In this document: piece after piece, positions 21,650 through 32,501 of the stretch
How positions within the stretch are numbered: the stretch's first letter is position 1
Layout: every line of letters starts with the position of its first letter
Assembly: GCF_900106595.1 (NCBI RefSeq)
Contig: NZ_FNNC01000002.1
Location: 1-64,000 of the forward strand
DNA: 64,000 nt
Reading direction: 5' to 3'
Origin: Marinococcus luteus
Lineage (GTDB): Bacteria > Bacillota > Bacilli > Bacillales > Marinococcaceae
Notes under the pieces: generated by a model
What the model saw: the letters and a program-made list of their open reading frames with translations, nothing else
Told to the model about the DNA's origin: nothing
Database searches by the model: none
Made by a program: the position numbers and the translations under genes

Positions 21650-21662
21650 GAAGATAGCAAAA

Positions 21663-21695
21663 CGGACTGCCTGTTGAAAAGGCAGTCCGTTTTTT
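21663..21695 (+). terminator. prfC terminator
   Basis: Perfect CGGACTGCC/GGCAGTCCG stem with a 9-nt loop and a TTTTTT tail. Confidence 0.9.
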
Positions 21696-21740: not shown

Positions 21741-21877
21741 CGCTTTTCTTGATGTCCAGCTTCGTCCCGCAGTCGCTTATTCCGTTGGCCGCCCTGGCTT
21801 CCTTGGCTCTGGCCAAGTCCAGCCAGGGAACAGGCCAGCCGGATAAGTCTCCTGAAATGCGGGACTACGCTTTTCTT
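21741..21877 (-). repeat. Palindromic repeat unit at the 3' end of the FAD oxidoreductase gene
   Basis: On the minus strand AAGAAAAGCG occurs at 21877-21868 and again at 21750-21741, 127 bp apart. The interior palindrome (21766-21847) nearly matches the core of the first unit at 13997-14077. The first motif lies inside the coding region and supplies the final Arg-Lys-Ala codons and the TAG of the oxidoreductase gene. Confidence 0.85.
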
Positions 21878-22962
21878 GATGGCTGTAGTTCTTTGATGAA
21901 TTTTTTGTCGATCCGGTGCTTAATTTTAAACGGCGCTTTGCCTGCACGAGTTTTGTCACCGTAAATCATCAGCCCCTGCTTGCCTCCAAGATTCAGGATC
22001 GCCATATAATTTTTTTGCGGCGAATACTTGGTCAGCTTTTTGCCTTTCAGGGAACGCTTGATGTTTTCAAGAAGCACCGGAGCTTCTTTAACAGCTGATA
22101 TTCCGTTTTTCGGAATGTCTTCATGTCCGGCGATGGTAACGCAGTCTCCCACTCCGAATATTTGCGGATATGCTACTGACTGCAGGTGTTCGTTTACGAG
22201 CAGATAGCCTTCGCTGTCGACCGGCAGCCGGGAGGCTTCAAACCAGGCCGGCGCTTTCGGTCCGGTCATCCACAACAGCTCTTCATACGGGAAGGACAGC
22301 GAATCAGTTTCCACCGTCCGGTCTGTCACCCGGTGCACCTCTTCGTTTTCAAAGTATTCAATCCCTCTCTTATCAAGAAGATCGTACACCTGCTGCCGTG
22401 TTTCTTCTGTGTCCTCCGGAAGCAGTTTACTTCCGGAAATAATTTTCACCGGAGACTGGAACTTGTTTTTACTTCTCCATGCCTGTGTGGTAAATGCCAT
22501 CTCGACTCCAGCATAGCCGCCGCCGACAACAACCGGGTGATGGCTTGTCCGAACACTTTCCACCGCTTCGGAGAAGTTTTCGTTAGCTTTTAAGACCTCC
22601 GCATGCTTTTGCACATGCGGAATTTCAAGCCCTTTCGGCTGGGCGCCGATATCTACGGACAAATAGTCAAAATGCATAACTTTACCTGCATTGGTGAGTA
22701 CAATATTCTGCTCCGGATCAATGGAAGTGACCTTGGCCGAAACAAATGTACCGCCGTTTTCGTTACAGAATGACCGAAGCGGGACACGGATGTCTTCGAT
22801 TGCGTAGCGCCCTTCCATATAGCCTGAATACATACCTGAATAATACTGGTACTGTCCCGGGGAAATAAGAATCCACTCTACGTCTTTTTTCTTTTTCTTC
22901 CATTCTTTTATTACGGAAAGATGGGTATGGCCTGCTCCAACGAATATTACTCGTTTAGTCAC
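21865..22962 (-). CDS. FAD/NAD(P)-dependent oxidoreductase related to SelD-associated flavoproteins
   Basis: 365 aa flavoprotein with two Rossmann folds: FAD motif VGAGHTHLSV (residues 6-15) and NAD(P) motif VGGGYAGVEMA (about 147-157). The GAGHTH start is typical of the family found fused to or next to selenide water dikinase (SelD), and also resembles NDH-2/SQR-like enzymes. Substrate is unknown. GTG start with GAGGAGG upstream. It is the last gene of the ynj/ydj-like operon. Its final codons and stop come from a palindromic repeat. Confidence 0.82.
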   Translation of the reverse strand: MTKRVIFVGAGHTHLSVIKEWKKKKKDVEWILISPGQYQYYSGMYSGYMEGRYAIEDIRVPLRSFCNENGGTFVSAKVTSIDPEQNIVLTNAGKVMHFDYLSVDIGAQPKGLEIPHVQKHAEVLKANENFSEAVESVRTSHHPVVVGGGYAGVEMAFTTQAWRSKNKFQSPVKIISGSKLLPEDTEETRQQVYDLLDKRGIEYFENEEVHRVTDRTVETDSLSFPYEELLWMTGPKAPAWFEASRLPVDSEGYLLVNEHLQSVAYPQIFGVGDCVTIAGHEDIPKNGISAVKEAPVLLENIKRSLKGKKLTKYSPQKNYMAILNLGGKQGLMIYGDKTRAGKAPFKIKHRIDKKFIKELQPSRKA

Positions 22963-22987
22963 TATATTTCCTCCTCTGTCTCTTCAA

Positions 22988-24427
22988 TTACCGAAACCAT
23001 GCTACATACTTTTTAAGTACCTTGTTGACGGGACTGTTAAACAAAGCCTCCCGCCAGTATTCATCCGCTGCTTTTTTCACGATATCCCCGTGAGCCGGAT
23101 ACGGATACACTACACTCGAAAATGACCGCAGCTTCTTCTTCCATGTTTTTGCTGCGGTGACCTGCTGCATCCAATCGGCCGCATGGCGTCCGACAGCATG
23201 GGCCCCGATAATGTTTCCTTTTTGATCGGTAATAATTTTCACTAAAGGAACCGGGTCGCCTTCAGCCAGAAAACGGTCCACCTGTTTTCCTTCAATACGG
23301 TAAATACGGGCATCTACGCCGTCAAGACGCTTTGCTTCTTCCTCGGTGATCCCCAGATGAAAAATTTCCGGCTCGGTATAATACGCCCAGGGGAGCGCAT
23401 TATAATTAATTTTCCGGCGCAGCCCGAAAACAGCGTTGGAGACCACAGTCTGACCTTCCATACCGGCCGCATGCGTGAACATATAGCCTCCGCTTGCGTC
23501 ACCCACGGCGTAAATATGCGGCACAGACGTCTGCATTGTATTCGAAACGTCGATGCTCCTATCTTTCTTTACCCTCACACCTGCTTTTTCTAATCCTATG
23601 TTATTTGTGTTTGGCACACGCCCTGCCGCAAGCAAAAGCGCGTCCGCTTCGATCTTCTGTTCGATTTTTCCCTCTGTGACAGCATACACGCGTCCATTTT
23701 CTTTTTCGAGTCTTACCACCCGGCTGTTGGGAATAAAATGGATTTCCTTCTCTAATTCCTTCTGCGCCCGTTCAGCAATTTCCTTTTCTTCTTTTGAGAA
23801 AATGCGATCGTTCGAGTCTACCGCTGTCACGGAAGAGCCAATTCGTGCGAGCGTCTGGGCAAGCTCCATACCCACGGGGCCGCTTCCAACACACACCAGT
23901 TTTTCCGGCAGCTTCTCTGCCTCGAAAATCGTTTCATTCGTGTAGTAAGGCAGAAACTCCAGATTTTCAATTGGAGGCACGTTCGGACTCGAGCCGGTGG
24001 CGATGACGATTCTTTTTCCGCCGATGACACTTCCATCTTCAAGATACAAATGATGGGGGTCCATGAATTCCCCGCGCCGCATGTACACGTCAATTCCGAG
24101 TGCTTCGAATTCGCTTATGTCATCAAGCTCCTGCACGTCAGCTACTGCGTCCTGCACTCTTTTTTTCACCTGTTCAAAATCAGCGTCTCCGTCCAGCTGC
24201 AGACCAAATTCTTCTGCCGCTCTTCTCGCATTTTGGATTTCTCTTCCGACAGTTACAAATGCTTTCGACGGTATACATCCGGCATGCAGGCATTCACCTC
24301 CAAGGTTTTCCCGGTCATCGACCAAAGCGGTCTTCATGCCAAACTGCGCTGCTCCTGAGGCAACGGTCAGTCCGCCGGACCCGCCCCCAAGCACTATTAA
24401 ATCGTAATCAATCTGCGGCATTCTCAT
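22988..24427 (-). CDS. Dihydrolipoamide dehydrogenase/mercuric reductase-like flavoprotein
   Basis: 479 aa pyridine nucleotide-disulfide oxidoreductase. FAD motif GGGSGGLTVA, redox-active pair CLHAGC, NAD(P) motif GSGPVGMELAQT, second FAD motif YAVGDASGGYMFTHAA, and dimerisation domain. The C-terminal His-Glu dyad of classical enzymes (HPTxxE) reads YPAHGD instead, so it is probably not a standard lipoamide dehydrogenase. This subfamily is often found next to or fused with TVP38/TMEM64 proteins. It overlaps the YnjF-like gene by about 20 nt. Start ATG at 24427 or 24421. Confidence 0.85.
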   Translation of the reverse strand: MRMPQIDYDLIVLGGGSGGLTVASGAAQFGMKTALVDDRENLGGECLHAGCIPSKAFVTVGREIQNARRAAEEFGLQLDGDADFEQVKKRVQDAVADVQELDDISEFEALGIDVYMRRGEFMDPHHLYLEDGSVIGGKRIVIATGSSPNVPPIENLEFLPYYTNETIFEAEKLPEKLVCVGSGPVGMELAQTLARIGSSVTAVDSNDRIFSKEEKEIAERAQKELEKEIHFIPNSRVVRLEKENGRVYAVTEGKIEQKIEADALLLAAGRVPNTNNIGLEKAGVRVKKDRSIDVSNTMQTSVPHIYAVGDASGGYMFTHAAGMEGQTVVSNAVFGLRRKINYNALPWAYYTEPEIFHLGITEEEAKRLDGVDARIYRIEGKQVDRFLAEGDPVPLVKIITDQKGNIIGAHAVGRHAADWMQQVTAAKTWKKKLRSFSSVVYPYPAHGDIVKKAADEYWREALFNSPVNKVLKKYVAWFR

Positions 24428-25013
24428 CCTGCTCCTTTAATAATCGTTTTGCTTCCAGCAGCCTCTGCAGGCCGGTAAATGTTTCGACAAATAAAAATAA
24501 AGCAGTGGAATACAGTAAAAAAGATGGAAAAAGCATCATGAGGGAGAACAAAATAAATCCTTCAGTTCGCTCAGCCAGTCCCGCCTGGTAGTAAAACGAT
24601 TTGACTCCGCTTTGTTCCGACATGTTTCCCACTGTTAAAAACACGGTAATCGAAAACAATATGGAAACACTTAATAGAAGAAGCAGCCACATTAAATCCG
24701 GATACCGGAAGGCGAGCCCGAGCAGAACACTCGCTTCCACAAGACGATCAAACGTAATATCAAGCACCGTCCCAAACGCAGAAGGCCTGGTTTTTCTCGC
24801 CATAGCCCCATCCACTGTGTCTAAAAATCCTGAAATCCAGAGACAGACAAATGCTGCCCATGCGGCGTCAAAATAAATGAGCGGACCTGTAAGCACCCCG
24901 ATTCCAAATGCCAGAACCGTTACCTGGTTGGCTGTCCAACGCCGCTTCAGAAACCAGTCGGCTGTTTTGTCTATAACCGGATCTGCCCATTTCCGGGCAT
25001 GTGTATCAATCAT
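24408..25013 (-). CDS. ynjF: YnjF-like CDP-alcohol phosphatidyltransferase
   Basis: 201 aa integral membrane enzyme. The family signature DxxDGxxAR...G...D...D is seen in DTVDGAMARKTRPSAFG and LDITFD; the spacing after AR is seven residues, as I recall for E. coli YnjF, instead of the usual eight. The KSFYYQAGLAERTEGFILF segment also resembles YnjF. The alcohol acceptor is not known. ATGA overlap with the TVP38 gene. Confidence 0.85.
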   Translation of the reverse strand: MIDTHARKWADPVIDKTADWFLKRRWTANQVTVLAFGIGVLTGPLIYFDAAWAAFVCLWISGFLDTVDGAMARKTRPSAFGTVLDITFDRLVEASVLLGLAFRYPDLMWLLLLLSVSILFSITVFLTVGNMSEQSGVKSFYYQAGLAERTEGFILFSLMMLFPSFLLYSTALFLFVETFTGLQRLLEAKRLLKEQDENAAD

Positions 25014-25675
25014 TGCAGATCCCCATTTACGTTGTTTATATTATTTTCATACCCTTTTTTCCGTAAAATGACAACTACGATTAAAAGAGCTGCAAAAACG
25101 CTGACTGCGCTCACTATATACCTCCATTCCCCGGTTAACAGCCCCGAGCCTAAAAAACTGTAGCCAATGGCCCCCGGGAGCAGCCCAATAACGGTGGCTG
25201 CTGTATAGGAGGACAGGCGCACCCTGGACAGCCCGCACACGTAACTGACAAGGTCAAAATTCAACACGGGCAGAAGCCGCATCAAAAGCGTTGCCCGGAA
25301 GCCTTCCGCTTCGAGCTTCCTGCGCCAGATTTCCATCCGCCCTTTAATTTTTGTCTGAAACAATTCTTTCCCGAGCAGGCGTCCGAGCCCGTATGCAAGC
25401 AGGGCCCCGCTCGTCCCGCCAATTAAAATGTATATCACGCCTGCAGCCGGACCAAAAGCGAGACCACCGGCAAGCGACATGATCGACGCTGGAAATAAAA
25501 TAAGCGGCCGGAGCATACAGGCGGCTATGTACATAACAGGAGCCCATGCACCGAGTATTAGAATTTCATCCCTTACCGCCTGCGGCGAGAATCGGAACAC
25601 TTCAGCGTTCAGCCAGGCGATTGTCACGACAGCTGTCAGAAAAACAACATATTTTATAATGCTTTTAGTACTCAT
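25010..25675 (-). CDS. TVP38/TMEM64 family membrane protein (YdjX/YdjZ-like)
   Basis: 221 aa, about five to six membrane segments, with the SNARE-associated (VTT/DedA-like) domain core: FPASIMSLAGGLAFGPAAG, GTSGALLAYGLGRLLG and RLLPVLNFDLVSYVCGL. Related proteins move or flip lipids or small solutes. Start set at ATG 25675 with GGAGG 6 nt upstream. In E. coli, YdjX and YdjZ of this family are encoded in the ydj-ynj locus. Confidence 0.88.
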   Translation of the reverse strand: MSTKSIIKYVVFLTAVVTIAWLNAEVFRFSPQAVRDEILILGAWAPVMYIAACMLRPLILFPASIMSLAGGLAFGPAAGVIYILIGGTSGALLAYGLGRLLGKELFQTKIKGRMEIWRRKLEAEGFRATLLMRLLPVLNFDLVSYVCGLSRVRLSSYTAATVIGLLPGAIGYSFLGSGLLTGEWRYIVSAVSVFAALLIVVVILRKKGYENNINNVNGDLQ

Positions 25676-25689
25676 ACGCTGCCTCCTTT

Positions 25690-26610
25690 TCAAACCGGGA
25701 TTATAAACGTTCTTCCACGAAACGGCTCATTCACAGCCAGAGTAACGGACTGGACGCCCCCGACTTCATAAAATGTCTGAATCCACAGGCCGTACTGTTT
25801 TTTCACAGGCCCTGCCTCAGCAGCGAAATAATCCTTCCCCGCTTCTTTTGAAACCCGCAAAGCTTCGGCCGGTACAAAGCCTTTCTCCGGAAACCACCAT
25901 CCATCTGCGAGCAGCGAAGCGGTCTCTTTTCGCTCCGGCGCCCGCATCAGTTTTTCCCTGTCACCTGTTTCTATAACTTCTCCTCCGGCCATCACACTGA
26001 CGCTCTCTCCCATATCGAACGCCTCCTCCCGGTCGTGCGTTACAAACATTGAAGTGATGTTTTCCTGCTCAAGTATTCCTTTTACCCAGCGGCGCATCGT
26101 TTTACGTAAAGAACTGTCCAGACTCGAAAATGGCTCATCAAGCAGCAGTACTTTCGGCGTTACAGCTATCGCCCGCGCAAGGGCCACACGCTGCTGCTGG
26201 CCTCCGGAGCATTGATACGGGTACAGTGCTTCAAGCTCCGCTATCTCCATTTTTTCGAGCAGCTGCCTGCCGGCTTTCGTGCGTTCTTTTTTGGGTATTC
26301 GTTTCATTTTCAGCCCGTACGTAACGTTTTGCAGAATCGTTAAATGCGGAAAAAGCAGCGGCTGCTGAAACATTAAAACGACAGGACGCTTCTCAGCCGG
26401 ATTTTCATTTACACTTGTCCCGTCAATCATCACCGTACCGCTTGAAAACGTATCAATCCCCGCAATACAGCGTAAAAGCGTCGATTTTCCCGTGCCGGAT
26501 TTCCCGACCAGGCTTCTGTTTTCCCCCTCTTTAAGCTCGAGGTTTATGTTCCGGAGCACCTGGTTTTCCTGATATACCTTGCTTCCATTCTGAACTGACA
26601 CATATGACAT
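25690..26610 (-). CDS. ynjD: ABC transporter ATP-binding protein, YnjD-like
   Basis: 306 aa. Walker A GKSGTGKST (about 37-45), Q loop, signature CSGGQQQRVALARA, Walker B VLLLDEPFSSLD and switch His in FVTHDREEA are all intact. About 80 residues follow the ATPase core; they may be a small regulatory or docking part. Energises the adjacent two permeases. Confidence 0.92.
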   Translation of the reverse strand: MSYVSVQNGSKVYQENQVLRNINLELKEGENRSLVGKSGTGKSTLLRCIAGIDTFSSGTVMIDGTSVNENPAEKRPVVLMFQQPLLFPHLTILQNVTYGLKMKRIPKKERTKAGRQLLEKMEIAELEALYPYQCSGGQQQRVALARAIAVTPKVLLLDEPFSSLDSSLRKTMRRWVKGILEQENITSMFVTHDREEAFDMGESVSVMAGGEVIETGDREKLMRAPERKETASLLADGWWFPEKGFVPAEALRVSKEAGKDYFAAEAGPVKKQYGLWIQTFYEVGGVQSVTLAVNEPFRGRTFIIPV

Positions 26611-26622
26611 ATTTCCCTACTC

Positions 26623-27405
26623 CTACCACGATTTTAAAATTTTCGTACTGACTCTGAGCACTACGTCAGCAAAAAGCGCAGCAGCCGCCGGAAGCGCTGC
26701 TGTCATTAATGAAAAGGCGCTGACGGCTGAAGGTGCCGCACTGTTTGTATACGGATAATACAATACCGCCATAGTCGTCACTGTTCCTCCTCCTATAATA
26801 ACAGTCAGGGCGAACTGGCTGACAGAAATAACGACTGCAAAAAAGACAGCTGTACGCACAGAAGCAGTCATCTGGGGAAGCTCAATCAGCAAAAACCTGG
26901 CGGCTGCCCCGCCACCGAGGCTTCGCGATTGTTCATACTGGCTTCTTCCTACCCGCTCGTAGCCGGCACGAATGATACGAATCGTGTACGGAAGTGTCGG
27001 CAGCAGATGAAAAAAGGCGACTCCGTACCATGTATTTGCTGTACCGCTTTGCAGAGCAAAAATGTGCAGCCCGACAGCAAGGGCGGTAATGGGAAGAAGC
27101 ACGGGAACTAAAAGCATCGCATCTATCAGTTCCTTTCCCCTGAATTCCCGGACAACAAGCGCTTTAGCTGCCGGAATGCCAATTACGAGATTCAGAGCCG
27201 CCACACAGAGGGCAATAAGAATCGTCCGCCCCCAGGCCTCTGCAAGCAGTGGATCGCCAAATGGCACTCTCCAGCCATCGAGCGTCCATACCAGCGGCCA
27301 AATTTCCCCAAACGGCCATTCCGCAGCGAAGCTCTGCACCACGAGCGCAAGCAAAGGGACTGCAAAGCAAAGCGCAAAAGCGGCTGCCGCTGCTTTTCTT
27401 TTCAT
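26623..27405 (-). CDS. ABC transporter permease (second half-YnjC-like)
   Basis: 260 aa, six membrane spans, binding-protein-dependent transport permease fold with the EAA-type loop SRSLGGGAAARFLLIELPQM. E. coli YnjC is one large protein made of two such halves; here the halves are separate genes. Begins one nucleotide after the first permease. Confidence 0.88.
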   Translation of the reverse strand: MKRKAAAAAFALCFAVPLLALVVQSFAAEWPFGEIWPLVWTLDGWRVPFGDPLLAEAWGRTILIALCVAALNLVIGIPAAKALVVREFRGKELIDAMLLVPVLLPITALAVGLHIFALQSGTANTWYGVAFFHLLPTLPYTIRIIRAGYERVGRSQYEQSRSLGGGAAARFLLIELPQMTASVRTAVFFAVVISVSQFALTVIIGGGTVTTMAVLYYPYTNSAAPSAVSAFSLMTAALPAAAALFADVVLRVSTKILKSW

Positions 27406-27406
27406 G

Positions 27407-28261
27407 CTACTCCCCCCTCCATATCCGGATACGCAGCCGGCGGGTATACCACATCAAAAGTGCGCTGAGAATGATGAACACCACGCCTGTCCAGGCCGAT
27501 ACTGCGTAGGCATAAGGACGTTCCTCCCAGTTTCCGCCGCTGTACCATTCAAAAATGGTAACACCAATCATTTCCGGGCGGGTTGCCCCCACCAGCCCCG
27601 GCACTTCAAAGGCACCGAATACAAACGCAAACAGGATTACTCCCGTTTCCAAGGTTACTGCTTTTAAATAAGGCCATTCCCCGTCTTTAAATTTACGGAA
27701 GGACCCGCCGCCAAGCGTTGCCACCGCATGCTTCACCGAATTGTTCATCTCAAGGTAGACCGGGGCTGTCATCAGCACCACGAAAGGCACCTCTTTCCAT
27801 ACGTAGGATAAAACAATGCCTATGCCGCTTGTATCATTTGTCAGGATAGGGAACTCTGTTCTATTGTCAATCCAGCCCAGCTGCTGCGTCAGAGACGCCG
27901 CCCATCCGCTTTGTGAAAAAAACCAGATGACAAGATAGGCCCCCACAAAATGAGGAACAGCCATCGGGATCCAGAACAGCGCACCGGCACCGGCGCTCCG
28001 TTTTTTCCCAAACAACAGTTTAGACGCCGCCACCCCGATCCCTAAAGAAAGCACGGTGGAAACGGCCGTCACTCCAAGACTGAAGCTGAGGCTTTCCCAA
28101 AAAGAAGGCAGCGATGCTACGTCATTAAGGACAACTAATGGATTTCCTTCTGCGCCAAGCCGCGTCCATAGTACTGCAACCGCGTAAAATGAAAGCCCTG
28201 CCGTAACAAGAAGCGCCGGCAAAAGCATAGCTATCATGCTTTTACCTTTGAACAATTTCAT
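27407..28261 (-). CDS. ABC transporter permease (first half-YnjC-like)
   Basis: 284 aa, six membrane spans, permease loop VATLGGGSFRKFKDGEWPYL. An upstream frame reaches 28321, but it overlaps the binding-protein gene; the ATG at 28261 gives a normal short N-terminus (MKLFKGKSMIAML). It overlaps the end of the binding-protein gene by 20 nt. Confidence 0.85.
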   Translation of the reverse strand: MKLFKGKSMIAMLLPALLVTAGLSFYAVAVLWTRLGAEGNPLVVLNDVASLPSFWESLSFSLGVTAVSTVLSLGIGVAASKLLFGKKRSAGAGALFWIPMAVPHFVGAYLVIWFFSQSGWAASLTQQLGWIDNRTEFPILTNDTSGIGIVLSYVWKEVPFVVLMTAPVYLEMNNSVKHAVATLGGGSFRKFKDGEWPYLKAVTLETGVILFAFVFGAFEVPGLVGATRPEMIGVTIFEWYSGGNWEERPYAYAVSAWTGVVFIILSALLMWYTRRLRIRIWRGE

Positions 28262-29468
28262 TTTCCCACCGGTCTTCGGTCCACTCTGCATAGCCTGCAT
28301 CCATTTCCGGCTGATAAGCATCGTTCAGCACTTCGGTATCCAGCACGGAATCCCCGCGGTCCTGTTCAATAAATTTTTGGCGCATCTCCTCTGAGAGCGT
28401 ATCAAGATCAAGCACGGTGCTGTCCCCCCACATTGACGGCGCCTGTTTCTGCAGCTGCGCTTCCGGAGATACTAAGTAATTGATCGCAGCCATCGCTCCC
28501 GGTACATTTGTGCTGTTAAAAGGAATGGACAGATAATGGGTGTTTCCTATCGAATTGTCGTCAAATACAAACGTGTCCGTTGTTTCCGGAAATGTGCCGT
28601 CCTGGATGAGGCTTTCTGCTCTCGCTTCATTGTAGCCCATGGTCATAGACACTTCGCCGTCCCGGTACAGCCGGTCAAGCTGGCTGAGCGACGATGGATA
28701 CGTCTCCCCGTCTCTCCATAGATCCGGCTCCATTTCCCGCAGGGTCTCCCACATACTGCCGCTTTGTTCATCGATCCATTCTTCATCGTATCCCTGTTCA
28801 ATGACTTGTTCGGCTTCGACATTGTTATAAATAAAATGGCGCAAAAACGCGTTGCCGGTAAAATCGGTCGCTTCCGGATACGTAAACTCTCCCGGGTTGT
28901 CCTCCACCCAGGCGGCAAGCTCTTCAATACTGTTTGGAGGCGTATCAACCTTTTCGGTGTCATACATGAAGGTAAACTGTACCGACCCCCACGGCACTTC
29001 CATCCCTTCAACCGGTGTACCGAAATCATACGCGTTTGTATCGGCCTCCATATCAATATGATTTTCCACGTTCGGGAGAGCGTCTGCGAAGGAACCGTAT
29101 AAAAGCTCGTTCTCCTTTGCGTTACGGAAATTCTCTCCGTTCAGCCAGACGATATCCATCGTCCCTTCTTCCGTGCCCGCTTCTTTTTCAGAATAAAGAT
29201 TTTGCAGTGCATCTTCGGTTTCAATCGGATTCCGGTTCAGCGTAATATCGTACTGCTCCTCCAAACGCGGGGCCACCCATTCGTCTATGTATTCATTGGT
29301 TCCCTGGTCCCCGCCCCACATATGTAATTCCACGGTCGTTCCTGCGGCTTCTTCCTCAATATCCTCCCACTCCTCTTCCTCCCAGGACGTCCCGCTTTCC
29401 TCTGAACCTCCGGAGCACCCTGCAGCGATAAGCATCGTCCCTGCGGCTGCGATTATTTTCCAATTCAT
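28242..29468 (-). CDS. ynjB: ABC transporter substrate-binding lipoprotein, YnjB-like
   Basis: 408 aa. Lipobox AAGC (Cys18), a short acidic linker (EEEEWEDIEEEA), then a type II periplasmic binding fold (VELHMWGGDQGTNEYIDEW; ISLPFNS-like segment near 320). It belongs with the E. coli YnjB group (COG4134), often annotated for thiamine or unknown substrates. Start ATG with AAAGGAG upstream. First gene of the eight-gene operon. Confidence 0.88.
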   Translation of the reverse strand: MNWKIIAAAGTMLIAAGCSGGSEESGTSWEEEEWEDIEEEAAGTTVELHMWGGDQGTNEYIDEWVAPRLEEQYDITLNRNPIETEDALQNLYSEKEAGTEEGTMDIVWLNGENFRNAKENELLYGSFADALPNVENHIDMEADTNAYDFGTPVEGMEVPWGSVQFTFMYDTEKVDTPPNSIEELAAWVEDNPGEFTYPEATDFTGNAFLRHFIYNNVEAEQVIEQGYDEEWIDEQSGSMWETLREMEPDLWRDGETYPSSLSQLDRLYRDGEVSMTMGYNEARAESLIQDGTFPETTDTFVFDDNSIGNTHYLSIPFNSTNVPGAMAAINYLVSPEAQLQKQAPSMWGDSTVLDLDTLSEEMRQKFIEQDRGDSVLDTEVLNDAYQPEMDAGYAEWTEDRWENEIVQR

Positions 29469-29563: not shown

Positions 29564-29597
29564 CAAAAAGACTGCCCTCTGCAGGACAGTCTTTTTA
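29564..29597 (-). terminator. Terminator after the surface repeat protein gene
   Basis: AAAAAGACTGTCC/GGACAGTCTTTTT-like stem (one mismatch) with a TCTGC loop. It separates the surface protein gene from the ynjB operon. Confidence 0.85.
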
Positions 29598-29607
29598 AAA
29601 ATAAATG

Positions 29608-30999
29608 CTACGCTTCTTCGCGGCGGCGCTTCGTTACAGCGATACCTGCCAGAATGAGCGCCATGCTGCCGGCAGCAATCCCCCAGGGGCTCACGTTCTG
29701 TTCAGAGCCGCCAAGGCCGGTCTGTGGCATTTCTTCCGGCATTGCTTCATCAGAAGAGCTCTCTTCAAAATTCTCCGGATACTGAGCCACAATGGCGCCG
29801 GAAAGACCTTCACTCACGCCAAACATATGGCCGTAAGCTTCGCGTGTATCTTCATAGGCACTGTCGTACTCTTCCATTGTATAGCTGTCAAACGCCCCGA
29901 TTAACTGATCCACGTGCATCCCGAGGCCTTCAGAAAGTCCTTCTGCTTCCAATTCACCTTCGGTAGCCCCTGCCAGGAATTCAGAGAACTCTGTCTGATA
30001 GTTTCCGAGGTTGTCGAGCGCTTCCTGTTTTGCTTCCTCGTCCTCCGCTCCCGTCGCTTCCACGTAATCAACAAAGTAGCCGATGTGTTCGCTCCACATT
30101 TCTTCAAACTGTTCTCCGGCTTCCTCTCCGTAGACGGAAGCAATCGTATCAGAGAGCTCCTGCGTATTCTGGTTCAGGATTCCTGCTGCTGCTCCGAAAT
30201 CCTCCGCTCCGGCTCCGCCCTTCTGCATCGTCGTTACAGCGAGTGCTGCGTGTTCTGAAAGCAGGAAGTTCAGATCCGAACGAAGATCAACCGCCGGAGT
30301 ATCTGGTGTGGTGTTGTCATACTCTTCCGGAAACTGGGCGGCAATAGCTCCTGATAAGCCTTCGCTGACTCCATACATGTGCTCAATGGCATCGCTTGAC
30401 ATGCTGTAGGCTTCCTCGTAATCGCCTGCAACGTAGCTGTCAAAAGCACCGATCAGCTGATCCACGTGCATCCCGAGACCTTCCGCAGCTGCGTCGGCTT
30501 CAAGTCCGCCTTCAGTAGCGCTGTCAAGAAACTCCGAAAACTCTGTCTGATAATTTCCGAGGTTGTCGAGCGCCTCCTGCTTTGCTTCCTCGTCCTCCGC
30601 TCCCGTCGCTTCCACATAATCAACAAAGTAGCCGATGTGTTCGCTCCACATTTCTTCAAACTGTGTACCCGCTTCTTCCCCGTAAACGGATGTGATAGTA
30701 CTTGAAAGATCCTTCGTATTTGCTTCTAATGCAGCGGCGGATTCTTCAAAATCATCTGCTCCGTCCGCCCCCTTCTGCATCGTCGTTACTGCCAGATATG
30801 CGTGTTCTGAAAGGTAATGGTCCAGCTGGGCCCTGAGGTCTCCGGCCGGCGTAGCTGCAGAAGCCATCATTTCCTCTGACATTTCCATATCGTCGTGGCC
30901 GTCGTGGCTGTCGGCTGAAGCGACTCCCGGTGCTGCCGGAATAATAACGGCGGCAGATAACGGCAGGGCTATGGCGGTGCGTTTCCAGTTGATGTACAT
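29608..30999 (-). CDS. Secreted two-repeat helical surface protein with LPXTG-like anchor
   Basis: 463 aa. Signal peptide (about 1-29), His/Met/Asp-rich segment (32-45, HDGHDDMEM), two tandem repeats of about 170 residues (53-225 and 238-407), then MPQTG (424-428), a membrane span (437-456) and KRRREEA, the layout of a sortase substrate. Each repeat has four predicted helices with conserved His: SEHAxLAVTTMQKG, EEMWSEHIGYFVDYVEATG, MHVDQLIGAFDSY and HMxGVSEGLSGAI. Function unknown; some relatives are labelled copper amine oxidase without clear basis. It has its own promoter sharing a motif with the neighbouring ECF sigma gene. Confidence 0.85.
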   Translation of the reverse strand: MYINWKRTAIALPLSAAVIIPAAPGVASADSHDGHDDMEMSEEMMASAATPAGDLRAQLDHYLSEHAYLAVTTMQKGADGADDFEESAAALEANTKDLSSTITSVYGEEAGTQFEEMWSEHIGYFVDYVEATGAEDEEAKQEALDNLGNYQTEFSEFLDSATEGGLEADAAAEGLGMHVDQLIGAFDSYVAGDYEEAYSMSSDAIEHMYGVSEGLSGAIAAQFPEEYDNTTPDTPAVDLRSDLNFLLSEHAALAVTTMQKGGAGAEDFGAAAGILNQNTQELSDTIASVYGEEAGEQFEEMWSEHIGYFVDYVEATGAEDEEAKQEALDNLGNYQTEFSEFLAGATEGELEAEGLSEGLGMHVDQLIGAFDSYTMEEYDSAYEDTREAYGHMFGVSEGLSGAIVAQYPENFEESSSDEAMPEEMPQTGLGGSEQNVSPWGIAAGSMALILAGIAVTKRRREEA

Positions 31000-31026
31000 G
31001 AATGAATCCCCCTTATATTTAGTTTC

Positions 31027-31059
31027 AGTCAGCTAACGAAACAAATACACGGCTGGATC
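31027..31059 (-). promoter_or_regulatory. Putative ECF-sigma promoter of the surface repeat protein
   Basis: Minus-strand GATCCA (31054-31059), 15-nt spacer, CGTTAGCTGACT (31027-31038). The same two elements precede the ECF sigma gene at 32545-32578. Transcription would start about 28 nt before the gene. Confidence 0.7.
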
Positions 31060-31135
31060 ATATTTTGTGAATATTTTGTGACTTTTTATTTAATCCATTC
31101 TTCCAAAACTACTGGTGTGAAGGTAATTTATTATG

Positions 31136-31167
31136 CAAAAAAGACCGGAAAAAATTTCCGGTCTTTT
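31136..31167 (-). terminator. Terminator after the RskA-like anti-sigma gene
   Basis: AAAAGACCGGAAA/TTTCCGGTCTTTT perfect stem with T tail, 8 nt beyond the stop. Confidence 0.88.
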
Positions 31168-31174
31168 CGTGTCT

Positions 31175-31948
31175 TTAGGAAAACGGAGCTTCGAGCACCA
31201 CTTCACCCTCAGGTGCTTCGTTGTCCGGCTCCGGCTCTCTCGTAATCGCCACGGCGTTCCAATCTTCATTCACTGCATCCGACGGGAAGACAAGCGAACC
31301 ACTTCCGTCTTCATTGGTTGTAAATGATCCTGCCGGCACCATCTGGTTGCCGTCACCAACCATCCACACCTGATAGACTTCACTATTATCAAGATTTTCG
31401 AGTCCCTCTACGTGCACAGCCATTTCTCCCTGCTGCTCAGCATTAAGAAGCGTGACTCTTCCGCTTCCCTGGGAGTTTTCTGTAGGGGCAAACTCCTGTG
31501 AAGCAATTACTTCGCCCGTTTCCTGTGAAGAATCTTCAAGCTCTGAAAGAGCCGTTTGCATTTCTCCAAGGTCTCCGGCGAGTTCTTCGCGTTCTTCTGC
31601 TGCCTGCTGCCACTGCGTGCCAAGATAAATATTGGTGCCTATGGAAGCAAGCAGTACTGCGGCCAGTGCGCCTGCCACAGCGCTCCATTTCCTTTTTGGT
31701 TTTGCCGCCGTAATTTTCTCTTCCGGCTCTTTTCCGACGACATGCTCCATGACCCGGCTTTTCATACCGGCCGGTGGATCCTGTGGTTCGATGTGTTGGG
31801 GCAGCTCTCCCATAATCGCCTGCATTTCTTCAAGCTCCTGCCTCGTCTCCTCATCCGTTTCGAGCCAGGCTTCAAACTCCCGCTCTTCTTCTATGGTTAA
31901 TAGACCATTTATATAATCAAACAACCAGTCTTGTTTATTACTCGCCAT
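31175..31948 (-). CDS. RskA-type anti-sigma factor
   Basis: 257 aa. N-terminal sigma-binding helices (about 1-70, DWLFDYINGLLTIEEEREFE) without zinc-binding HCC residues, membrane span (about 88-110), coiled-coil stretch (about 115-145) and an extracellular RskA domain (about 155-257; VYQVWMVGDGNQMVPAGSF). It should hold the ECF factor encoded upstream. ATG at 31948 has GGAGGG 6 nt upstream and overlaps the sigma gene by 11 nt. Confidence 0.92.
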   Translation of the reverse strand: MASNKQDWLFDYINGLLTIEEEREFEAWLETDEETRQELEEMQAIMGELPQHIEPQDPPAGMKSRVMEHVVGKEPEEKITAAKPKRKWSAVAGALAAVLLASIGTNIYLGTQWQQAAEEREELAGDLGEMQTALSELEDSSQETGEVIASQEFAPTENSQGSGRVTLLNAEQQGEMAVHVEGLENLDNSEVYQVWMVGDGNQMVPAGSFTTNEDGSGSLVFPSDAVNEDWNAVAITREPEPDNEAPEGEVVLEAPFS

Positions 31949-32501
31949 AATCAACCCTCCGTTCCCTGGAGAGGTGTTCTTTTAATTTCTTTAGGGCGAG
32001 CCTGATGCGGCCCTTTACAGTACCGAGCGGTATATCGCAGGACTCTGCAATCTTACGCTGGGACAGCCCCTGAAAATAAAACAGGCGGACAATTTTTTGT
32101 TGTTCCTCTGAAAGAAGCGCGATTGCCTGTTCGAGCTCTTCGTTGCTTTCTTTCAGCTCCACCTGCTCTTCCACCCCTGTCATTTCCTCTTTCGAATCCC
32201 TCGGATCCCATTCCACTTCCGGCTTTTTTCTCCGGATGGCATCAATCGAGGCGTTGCGTGTAATCGTAAGCAGCCAGGAAGAAAGTGAGCCTTTATCTTT
32301 CTGGTAGACAGCGCTTCCCTTCCCCTGCCATATTTTCATAAAAACATCTTGCATGATCTCTTCGGCTATTTGCTGATCCTTAGTCATTCGGTAGGCGAAT
32401 GAATAAAGCAGCCGTTCGTAACGATCATACAGAATTTCAAGCGCTTCTCTGTCACGCTCTCGTATGCGCTCATATAAATCGTTATCCGATAACTTCGACA
32501 T
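31938..32501 (-). CDS. ECF sigma factor (SigK/RskA-associated group)
   Basis: 187 aa. Region 2: ILYDRYERLLYSFAYRMTKD, EEIMQDVFMKIWQG and LSSWLLTITRNASIDAIRRK. Region 4: EEQQKIVRLFYFQGLSQRKI and IPLGTVKGRIRLALKKL. Partner of the RskA-type anti-sigma factor. The likely targets are its own operon and the surface repeat protein, based on a shared upstream motif. Confidence 0.93.
   Translation of the reverse strand: MSKLSDNDLYERIRERDREALEILYDRYERLLYSFAYRMTKDQQIAEEIMQDVFMKIWQGKGSAVYQKDKGSLSSWLLTITRNASIDAIRRKKPEVEWDPRDSKEEMTGVEEQVELKESNEELEQAIALLSEEQQKIVRLFYFQGLSQRKIAESCDIPLGTVKGRIRLALKKLKEHLSRERRVDYGE

Follow-up and report, generated by a model that had tools for sequence, protein, structure and literature searches.

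A 64,000-nucleotide stretch of DNA from the salt-loving bacterium Marinococcus luteus (Bacillota; contig NZ_FNNC01000002.1, positions 1 to 64,000; "the window" below means this whole stretch) carries a compact row of eight minus-strand genes, running from 29468 down to 21865, in which the neighbours overlap or lie at most 25 nucleotides (nt) apart. Window proteins were assigned to families with Pfam and NCBIfam models at their curated cut-offs. The first gene (28242-29468) encodes a YnjB-type substrate-binding protein (NF008633/PRK11622, 452.8 bits against a cut-off of 203) and is followed by two separate permeases of the BPD_transp_1 family, corresponding to the N-terminal (YnjC-N, 27407-28321) and C-terminal (YnjC-C, 26623-27405) halves of YnjC, and by the YnjD ATPase (25690-26610; ABC_tran, 114.5 bits), which complete an ATP-binding cassette (ABC) importer. 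Next come a VTT/TVP38 membrane protein of the DedA superfamily (25010-25693), a YnjF-type CDP-alcohol phosphatidyltransferase (24408-25013; PF01066, CDP-OH_P_transf, 44 against 22), a lipoamide-dehydrogenase/MerA-like flavoprotein (22988-24427; Pyr_redox_2 and Pyr_redox_dim) and, as last gene, an FSP1/NDH-2-like flavoprotein (21865-22962; Pyr_redox_2). A prediction made earlier from the letters alone had described these eight genes, and all were found at the positions and in the families it gave, on the minus strand.

YnjB and YnjC-N overlap by 80 nt, 1 nt separates YnjC-N from YnjC-C and 12 nt separate YnjC-C from YnjD; the overlaps are 4 nt between YnjD and TVP38, 4 nt between TVP38 and the CDP-alcohol phosphatidyltransferase and 20 nt between the latter and the MerA-like gene, and the last gap is 25 nt. 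Terminator-like hairpins, both seen by eye, lie between the upstream LPXTG-type gene and ynjB (about 29565-29596, minus strand; absent from the hairpin scan listing) and 3' of the last gene, where the hairpin is common to a convergent prfC-like gene (about 21660-21690, approximate ends). Since hairpins stand before the first and after the last gene, this layout suggests that the eight genes form a single transcript. The closest named matches of YnjB, at 89-96%, are from M. halophilus, M. halotolerans and an uncultured Marinococcus.

The importer and its lipid and redox partners

The window YnjB and YnjD are 33% and 36% identical to their E. coli namesakes; against E. coli YnjC, YnjC-N aligns with the N half (21% identity, E 0.002) and YnjC-C with the C half (26% identity over 106 columns, E 3e-9). 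In an alignment of 77 YnjB sequences of both phyla considered below, Bacillota and Pseudomonadota, 19 residues have a conservation of 1.00 (rounded), including W51, N58, D105, W108, N110, N113, F114, D148, N309, N318, Q338, E388 and W401, which would fit one shared ligand in both phyla. The predicted model of YnjB (mean predicted local distance difference test score, pLDDT, of 88) has a periplasmic-binding-protein fold. A sequence comparison with solved structures gave no relative at E 0.01; Foldseek matches of the model include polyamine, iron (ferric-binding) and gamma-aminobutyric acid (GABA) binding proteins, and further ones are binding proteins for sugars, glycerophosphocholine, sulfoquinovosyl glycerol and dinucleotides. 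As these matches have no clear winner, no ligand is claimed. On the YnjB tree the Bacillota and Pseudomonadota rows are two separate groups (100, starred) and the window YnjB sits among the Bacillota, a position that argues against recent acquisition of the gene from Pseudomonadota.

The YnjF-type enzyme, 30% identical to E. coli YnjF, has PF01066 over its cut-off and the full D-D-G-A-R-G-D-D signature of class I CDP-alcohol phosphatidyltransferases (D65, D68, G69, A72, R73, G81, D85, D89), each residue of which is kept in at least 90% of 58 aligned sequences. The same holds for the tail residues K138, Y141, G145, E148, E151, T180 and R184; a tail K-x2-Y-x3-G-x2-E-x2-E, the subfamily criterion defined in the present analysis, is common to the window enzyme and E. 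coli YnjF and places the former in the YnjF-type subfamily. The lipid head-group transfer proposed in the original prediction is supported by this intact catalytic signature. The nearest solved relatives are phosphatidylinositol-phosphate (PIP) synthases, in which two arginines (R155 and R195 of MtPIPS) bind the phosphate of inositol phosphate (PMC4634129). The window enzyme is not assigned to PIP synthases: R195 matches R184 but R155 falls on G152, and the NF045883 score is 61 against 170.

The TVP38 protein belongs to the VTT/DedA superfamily (PF09335, 91.9 against 33.9) and in pairwise comparison is 30% identical to YdjZ and 23% to YdjX, which leaves it a candidate for the COG0398 subfamily; the window genome has 3 further VTT genes over the cut-off. 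DedA/TVP38 proteins of COG0398 are proposed phospholipid scramblases, form the subfamily nearest to TMEM41B and VMP1, two scramblases of eukaryotes, and have a pyridine-nucleotide-disulfide oxidoreductase as commonest fusion partner (PMC10127716). An E. coli mutant defective in cell division was not rescued by YdjX or YdjZ (PMC3836016).

In the MerA-like flavoprotein the residues C46 and C51 (CxxxxC) and Y443, which replaces the catalytic His, are each kept in at least 90% of 23 aligned sequences. The hallmark of MerA is a C-terminal cysteine pair. No cysteine stands within the last 40 residues of the window protein, none is conserved at the C-terminus of the 23 aligned sequences, and the TIGR02053 score is 309 against 454; a mercury function for this gene, which the original prediction had called mercuric-reductase-like, is therefore supported by neither score nor residues. 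The best solved relatives of the last flavoprotein are FSP1/AIFM2 (E 1.6e-18) and then NDH-2. It is of the TIGR03169 type, and its score of 261.8 bits against a cut-off of 310 leaves it outside the SelD-associated oxidoreductases proper.

Distribution of the gene set in Bacillota and Pseudomonadota

The genome sample comprised 299 Bacillota and 398 Pseudomonadota, in which the YnjB model was over its cut-off in 26 and 51 genomes, respectively. We surveyed 25 Bacillota loci (the 26 minus the window) and 51 Pseudomonadota loci within 10 kb of YnjB, annotating them by means of profiles made from proteins of the window, of E. coli and of the clusters; same-genus Marinococcus loci, loci of named records (except L051), the decayed L046, L127-L132 and L183 were excluded from the counts, and 7 of the 25 Bacillota loci lie less than 5 kb from a contig end. 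The YnjF type was called by score among 8-10 candidates per genome at most, at a minimum of 187 bits in Pseudomonadota and, in Bacillota, for 18 genomes at 207 bits or above plus two fragmentary rows (134 and 175).

YnjB and the YnjF-type enzyme occur together in both phyla. Pseudomonadota hold both in 49 genomes, YnjB only in 2, the YnjF type only in 11 and neither in 336 (Fisher 2e-49, kinship ignored); for Bacillota the corresponding numbers are 18, 8, 2 and 271 (Fisher 8e-21, kinship ignored). Both Bacillota cases with the YnjF type only are fragmentary matches, and one of them (G064) adjoins a decayed YnjB; the locus concerned (L046) is a ynj cluster in decay, with YnjB in pieces and interrupted by stop codons beside a truncated CDP-alcohol phosphatidyltransferase. 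Genes of this enzyme lie within 10 kb of YnjB in 16/25 Bacillota and 34/51 Pseudomonadota loci, against a rough expectation of 1-2% (assuming 2-4 such genes per 4 Mb), and on the strand of YnjB in 15/16 and 28/34 of these cases. Free or fused TVP38 is as near in 17/25 and 21/51 loci, a MerA-like gene in 2/25 and 16/51 (15 of the 16 fused to TVP38), an FSP1/SelD-type oxidoreductase in 2/25 and 6/51, and a rhodanese in 13/25 and 6/51. At the loci of sub-threshold YnjB paralogues partner genes were found in 0/4. The original view that the gene set is conserved across phyla as a unit thus holds for these two, co-occurrence being far above chance level. The YnjB tree requires at least 8 changes for the CDP-alcohol phosphatidyltransferase, 7 for the SelD-type gene and 9 for the MerA-like one, so that these partners of YnjB have been repeatedly gained or lost.

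The redox genes are linked to each other and to TVP38. The FSP1-like gene is present in 8/76 loci, all 8 with the MerA-like gene. TVP38-flavoprotein fusions, mentioned in the original prediction as occurring elsewhere, adjoin YnjB itself in 15/51 Pseudomonadota loci, and COG0398 fusions are also described in PMC10127716. A TVP38-MerA fusion was found in 17/40 YnjB genomes (the query's own included) against 2/40 others (Fisher p 1e-4); in a further 7 of the 40 genomes TVP38 is free and shares 52-62% identity with the fused domain, and one of the two YnjB-negative genomes (G310) has internal stops in its fusion. This survey took in 40 of the 51 YnjB-positive genomes, eight of the 11 omitted having the fusion beside YnjB; its 40 negatives, as well as the 23 negatives of the SelD survey given below, are listed and non-random rows, some with weak sub-threshold YnjB-like matches.

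All functions stand in one neighbourhood, with strands sometimes differing, in L022 (G173), L027 (G272), L050 (a Bacillus) and L174-L176, in the last three of which TVP38 is fused; the plasmid loci L129 (Klebsiella) and L132 (Pseudooceanicola) also have all functions, with TVP38 and the flavoprotein as one protein. In Bacillota loci beyond the class of the window, Fe-S/CCG, rhodanese, split YedE/YeeE (7/25) and LysR genes are often present; CCG-domain proteins or their flavoprotein partner c6 occur in 14/25 Bacillota loci, 0/14 of which have a MerA-like gene, and YedE, c6 and CCG were found in 0/51 Pseudomonadota loci. Loci of the E. coli type have YdjY, an AhpD-like YnjA with CxxC, and YnjE, which in E. 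coli keeps Cys385. Rhodanese-like neighbours have a simple CxxGx pattern in 16/19 loci, the others being L016, L019 and L020. An exclusion between MerA-like and rhodanese genes (Fisher 0.03) is not significant on the tree, and L166 has both. An enterobacterial-type ynj locus in a record titled Chryseobacterium (L120) is probably due to contamination or mislabelling.

Nine loci contain a protein of the APH/choline-kinase type, and seven of them also TIGR04282 and TIGR04283. None of the nine has a CDP-alcohol phosphatidyltransferase beside the kinase (Fisher 2e-5), and three of the genomes (G356, G701, G620) hold a YnjF-type gene elsewhere. For this mutual exclusion the YnjB tree offers only four independent pairs, on which a sign test gives no significance (median p 0.25); the locus kinase may be an alternative way of activating the same alcohol. 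TIGR04282 and TIGR04283, named by NCBI as arsenosugar biosynthesis glycosyltransferases, lie for example in L025 (13355-14811) and L136 (5577-6987), and because such ynj-cluster genomes are without ArsS over cut-off that name may be too narrow.

Other lipid genes also occur near YnjB, LPG_synthase_TM being found in 3/25 Bacillota loci. Clusters added in Pseudomonadota are of the TonB-receptor (7 loci), DUF547 (8) and fatty-acid-hydroxylase type (7), as judged from one tested member each; these genes adjoin YnjBCD and a CDP-alcohol phosphatidyltransferase in L171-L172, L176-L177 and L179-L182, not all three everywhere. Upstream of the window operon, on the minus strand at 29608-32501, lie genes labelled from their sequence as an ECF-type sigma factor, an anti-sigma-like protein and a secreted LPXTG-type protein with an internal repeat, the last of which has no match in Pfam or NCBIfam. 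Sigma-factor genes also adjoin the gene set in the plasmid loci L129 and L132. The ECF sigma factor is not counted as a general partner, since a one-sequence phmmer search, too weak a basis for counts, matched Marinococcus loci and gave one weak match in L173.

A proposed head-group salvage and the competing explanations

We tentatively favour, at a little less than an even chance, a reading of the operon as a head-group salvage and membrane-lipid module. YnjB would catch one particular small molecule and YnjC and YnjD would import it, a step with good support from the protein families. The YnjF-type enzyme would join an alcohol group of the imported compound, or of a close derivative, to CDP-diacylglycerol, yielding a phospholipid with an unusual head group; the reasons to think so are the family of the enzyme and the fact that YnjB and YnjF co-occur so strongly. 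TVP38 may then move the product between leaflets, as the literature on COG0398 DedA proteins would suggest (PMC10127716), and the MerA-like and FSP1/NDH-2-like flavoproteins may keep the head group or a membrane partner in the right redox state, presumably with NAD(P)H and possibly quinone.

Three unrelated kinds of thiol/disulfide enzymes occupy the same place in different lineages, and we therefore propose, with low confidence, that a thiol, disulfide or persulfide takes part in this redox chemistry; the confidence is low because 30/51 Pseudomonadota loci have no such gene nearby. Judged by family, the common ground of CxxxxC flavoproteins, CCG proteins and AhpD-like and rhodanese proteins would be only thiol, disulfide or persulfide chemistry. 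A more specific and rather unlikely version is a thiol-bearing phospholipid, in which YnjF would couple an imported thiol- or disulfide-alcohol to CDP-diacylglycerol, TVP38 would spread the product and a disulfide reductase tethered to the membrane would keep it reduced. In at least two phyla such a lipid, if real, would correspond to glutathione or bacillithiol but be bound to the membrane, and heterodisulfide-reductase-like CCG proteins or rhodanese would do equal work in other lineages.

Several observations weigh against head-group salvage. M. halophilus (L033, L048) lacks the TVP38 gene in an operon that is complete in other respects, and in G003 (L035 6233-6914) the gene is divided between two frames; because of these cases, TVP38 is either dispensable in the operon or backed up by a paralogue. 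Beyond Marinococcus the MerA-like and FSP1-like genes are each present in only 2/25 sampled Bacillota loci, and redox genes of the kinds described are absent nearby in 30/51 Pseudomonadota and 8/25 Bacillota loci, some Bacillota loci being cut by contig ends. A YnjF-type gene is lacking in 8/26 Bacillota YnjB genomes, of which five have the locus kinase, three of these with TIGR04282 and TIGR04283. In the Pseudomonadota loci L153, L154 and L161 YnjBCD stands without these partners nearby; the genomes concerned hold a YnjF-type gene elsewhere. Moreover, the co-occurrence statistics treat genomes as independent, and the distribution of SelD, given next, favours the chalcogen explanation.

The competing explanation that survives best, itself doubtful, is acquisition and trafficking of a chalcogen (sulfur or selenium), with the CDP-alcohol phosphatidyltransferase as a side branch. 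Rhodanese genes in 13/25 Bacillota and 6/51 Pseudomonadota loci and split YedE/YeeE in 7/25 Bacillota loci speak for it, as do a 'near Sec' model (NF045663) over cut-off for L016 (569 against 530) and SelD over cut-off in 20/23 Bacillota YnjB genomes against 13/23 others. YedE is described as a possible Se transporter and LysR_Se as a predicted regulator (PMC9312934), and a LysR cluster, one member of which was tested, is found in five Bacillota YnjB loci. However, the most constant partner of YnjB is a lipid enzyme and not the sulfur genes, the Pseudomonadota loci are devoid of YedE, c6 and CCG (0/51), and SelD is under cut-off in 8/15 Pseudomonadota YnjB genomes tested and over it in 7/15. 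The flavoprotein-type Bacillota tested, apart from G306, also have no SelD over cut-off (G000, which is the window genome, G272 and G173). The best TIGR00476 match in the window genome reaches 75.5 bits against 125; SelD-based selenium use is therefore not needed there and was rejected for this genome. As a general idea, the chalcogen-containing import of the original prediction is only suggestive: rhodanese, split YedE/YeeE and CCG genes are present in many Bacillota loci beyond the window's class and SelD is over cut-off in 20/23 Bacillota YnjB genomes, yet 30/51 Pseudomonadota loci have no thiol-type redox gene nearby.

It is rather improbable that the module protects the membrane against oxidised lipids, the flavoproteins keeping antioxidants reduced while import, CDP-alcohol phosphatidyltransferase and TVP38 rebuild damaged lipids. 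The kinship of the last gene to FSP1 and NDH-2 agrees with this, together with the AhpD-like YnjA with CxxC in enterobacterial-type loci, the sigma-factor genes that accompany the set in L129 and L132 and lie upstream of the operon in the window, and a BaeR regulon table in which ynjA changes 1.6-fold and ynjB 1.4-fold (PMC2731931). On the other hand, E. coli ydjXYZ-ynjABCD is listed as directly activated by FNR, and so is on without oxygen (PMC3688515), and CCG/Fe-S proteins and SelD are present in many of the Bacillota hosts, suggesting to us an anaerobic life.

Uptake of a metal or metal complex, with reductive release by the MerA-like protein and the lipid genes as accessories, is slightly less probable still. 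DUF2282 and DUF692 genes, which have a role in metal stress, adjoin L129; a TonB-receptor cluster is found in 7 Pseudomonadota loci, its one tested member being of the siderophore type, and ferric-binding proteins are among the Foldseek matches of YnjB. These matches, however, also span sugars, polyamines and dinucleotides and cannot tell the ligand, and the MerA-like protein fails the MerA model (309 against 454) with no conserved C-terminal cysteine in 23 sequences. Very improbable and largely refuted is an arsenosugar (ArsS) pathway or a relative leading to arsenosugar phospholipids, which was considered because TIGR04282 and TIGR04283 are present in 7/76 loci, over cut-off in L025 and L136, and was rejected because ArsS (TIGR04167) is over cut-off in 0/36 cluster genomes, including the window's and all seven with these neighbours.

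Relation to known systems

The family of each part is already known, as is the E. coli operon by sequence and regulation. In the open-licence literature we found no function assigned to ynjBCD or ynjF and no report of the pairing of YnjBCD, YnjF, TVP38 and flavoproteins, which is not proof of absence. YnjBCD is enriched in one Marinobacter clade (PMC9207381), YnjB is listed as a polyamine-type homologue (PMC9397018), and in a ciprofloxacin screen the ynjB deletion has one minus sign, above the heading for tolerant mutants (PMC13131330); tables of PMC9405208 and PMC10971958 give no substrate. E. coli shares three orphan families with many other bacteria, namely YnjBCD, YnjF and the TVP38 proteins of COG0398. 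Through the pairing of YnjBCD with YnjF (49/51 and 18/26 genomes) each acquires a partner, and what were three questions become a single pathway open to test. TVP38, of the subfamily closest to TMEM41B and VMP1 (PMC10127716), would also gain a place in a defined bacterial pathway.

The window shares with E. coli ydjXYZ-ynjABCD, ynjE and ynjF the same binding protein, permease, ATPase, TVP38 and YnjF-type families. In E. coli TVP38 is in two copies, YnjC is one fused gene whereas it is split in the window, and YdjY, the AhpD-like YnjA and the rhodanese YnjE replace the two flavoproteins. The original prediction had given the E. coli genes as ydjXYZ-ynjABCDEF; the shared families and the rhodanese are indeed there, but the genes are not one operon, because ynjF of K-12 is on the strand opposite to ydjXYZ-ynjABCDE and FNR acts on ynjE separately from ydjXYZ-ynjABCD (PMC3688515).

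Three further comparisons concern the logic and the enzymes of the proposed module. In choline import (ChoXWV) coupled to phosphatidylcholine synthase, an ABC importer feeds a CDP-diacylglycerol-dependent transferase, the same importer-transferase logic as in the window with other families; we know of no redox partner of that system. Bacterial PIP synthases are class I enzymes whose catalytic signature and R195 equivalent are kept by the window enzyme, and R155 is not (PMC4634129). Finally, the COG0398 DedA fusions join a VTT domain to the same flavoprotein partner as in the window (PMC10127716); the available text of that paper mentions no link to YnjBCD or a CDP-alcohol phosphatidyltransferase, and the present counts add that link.

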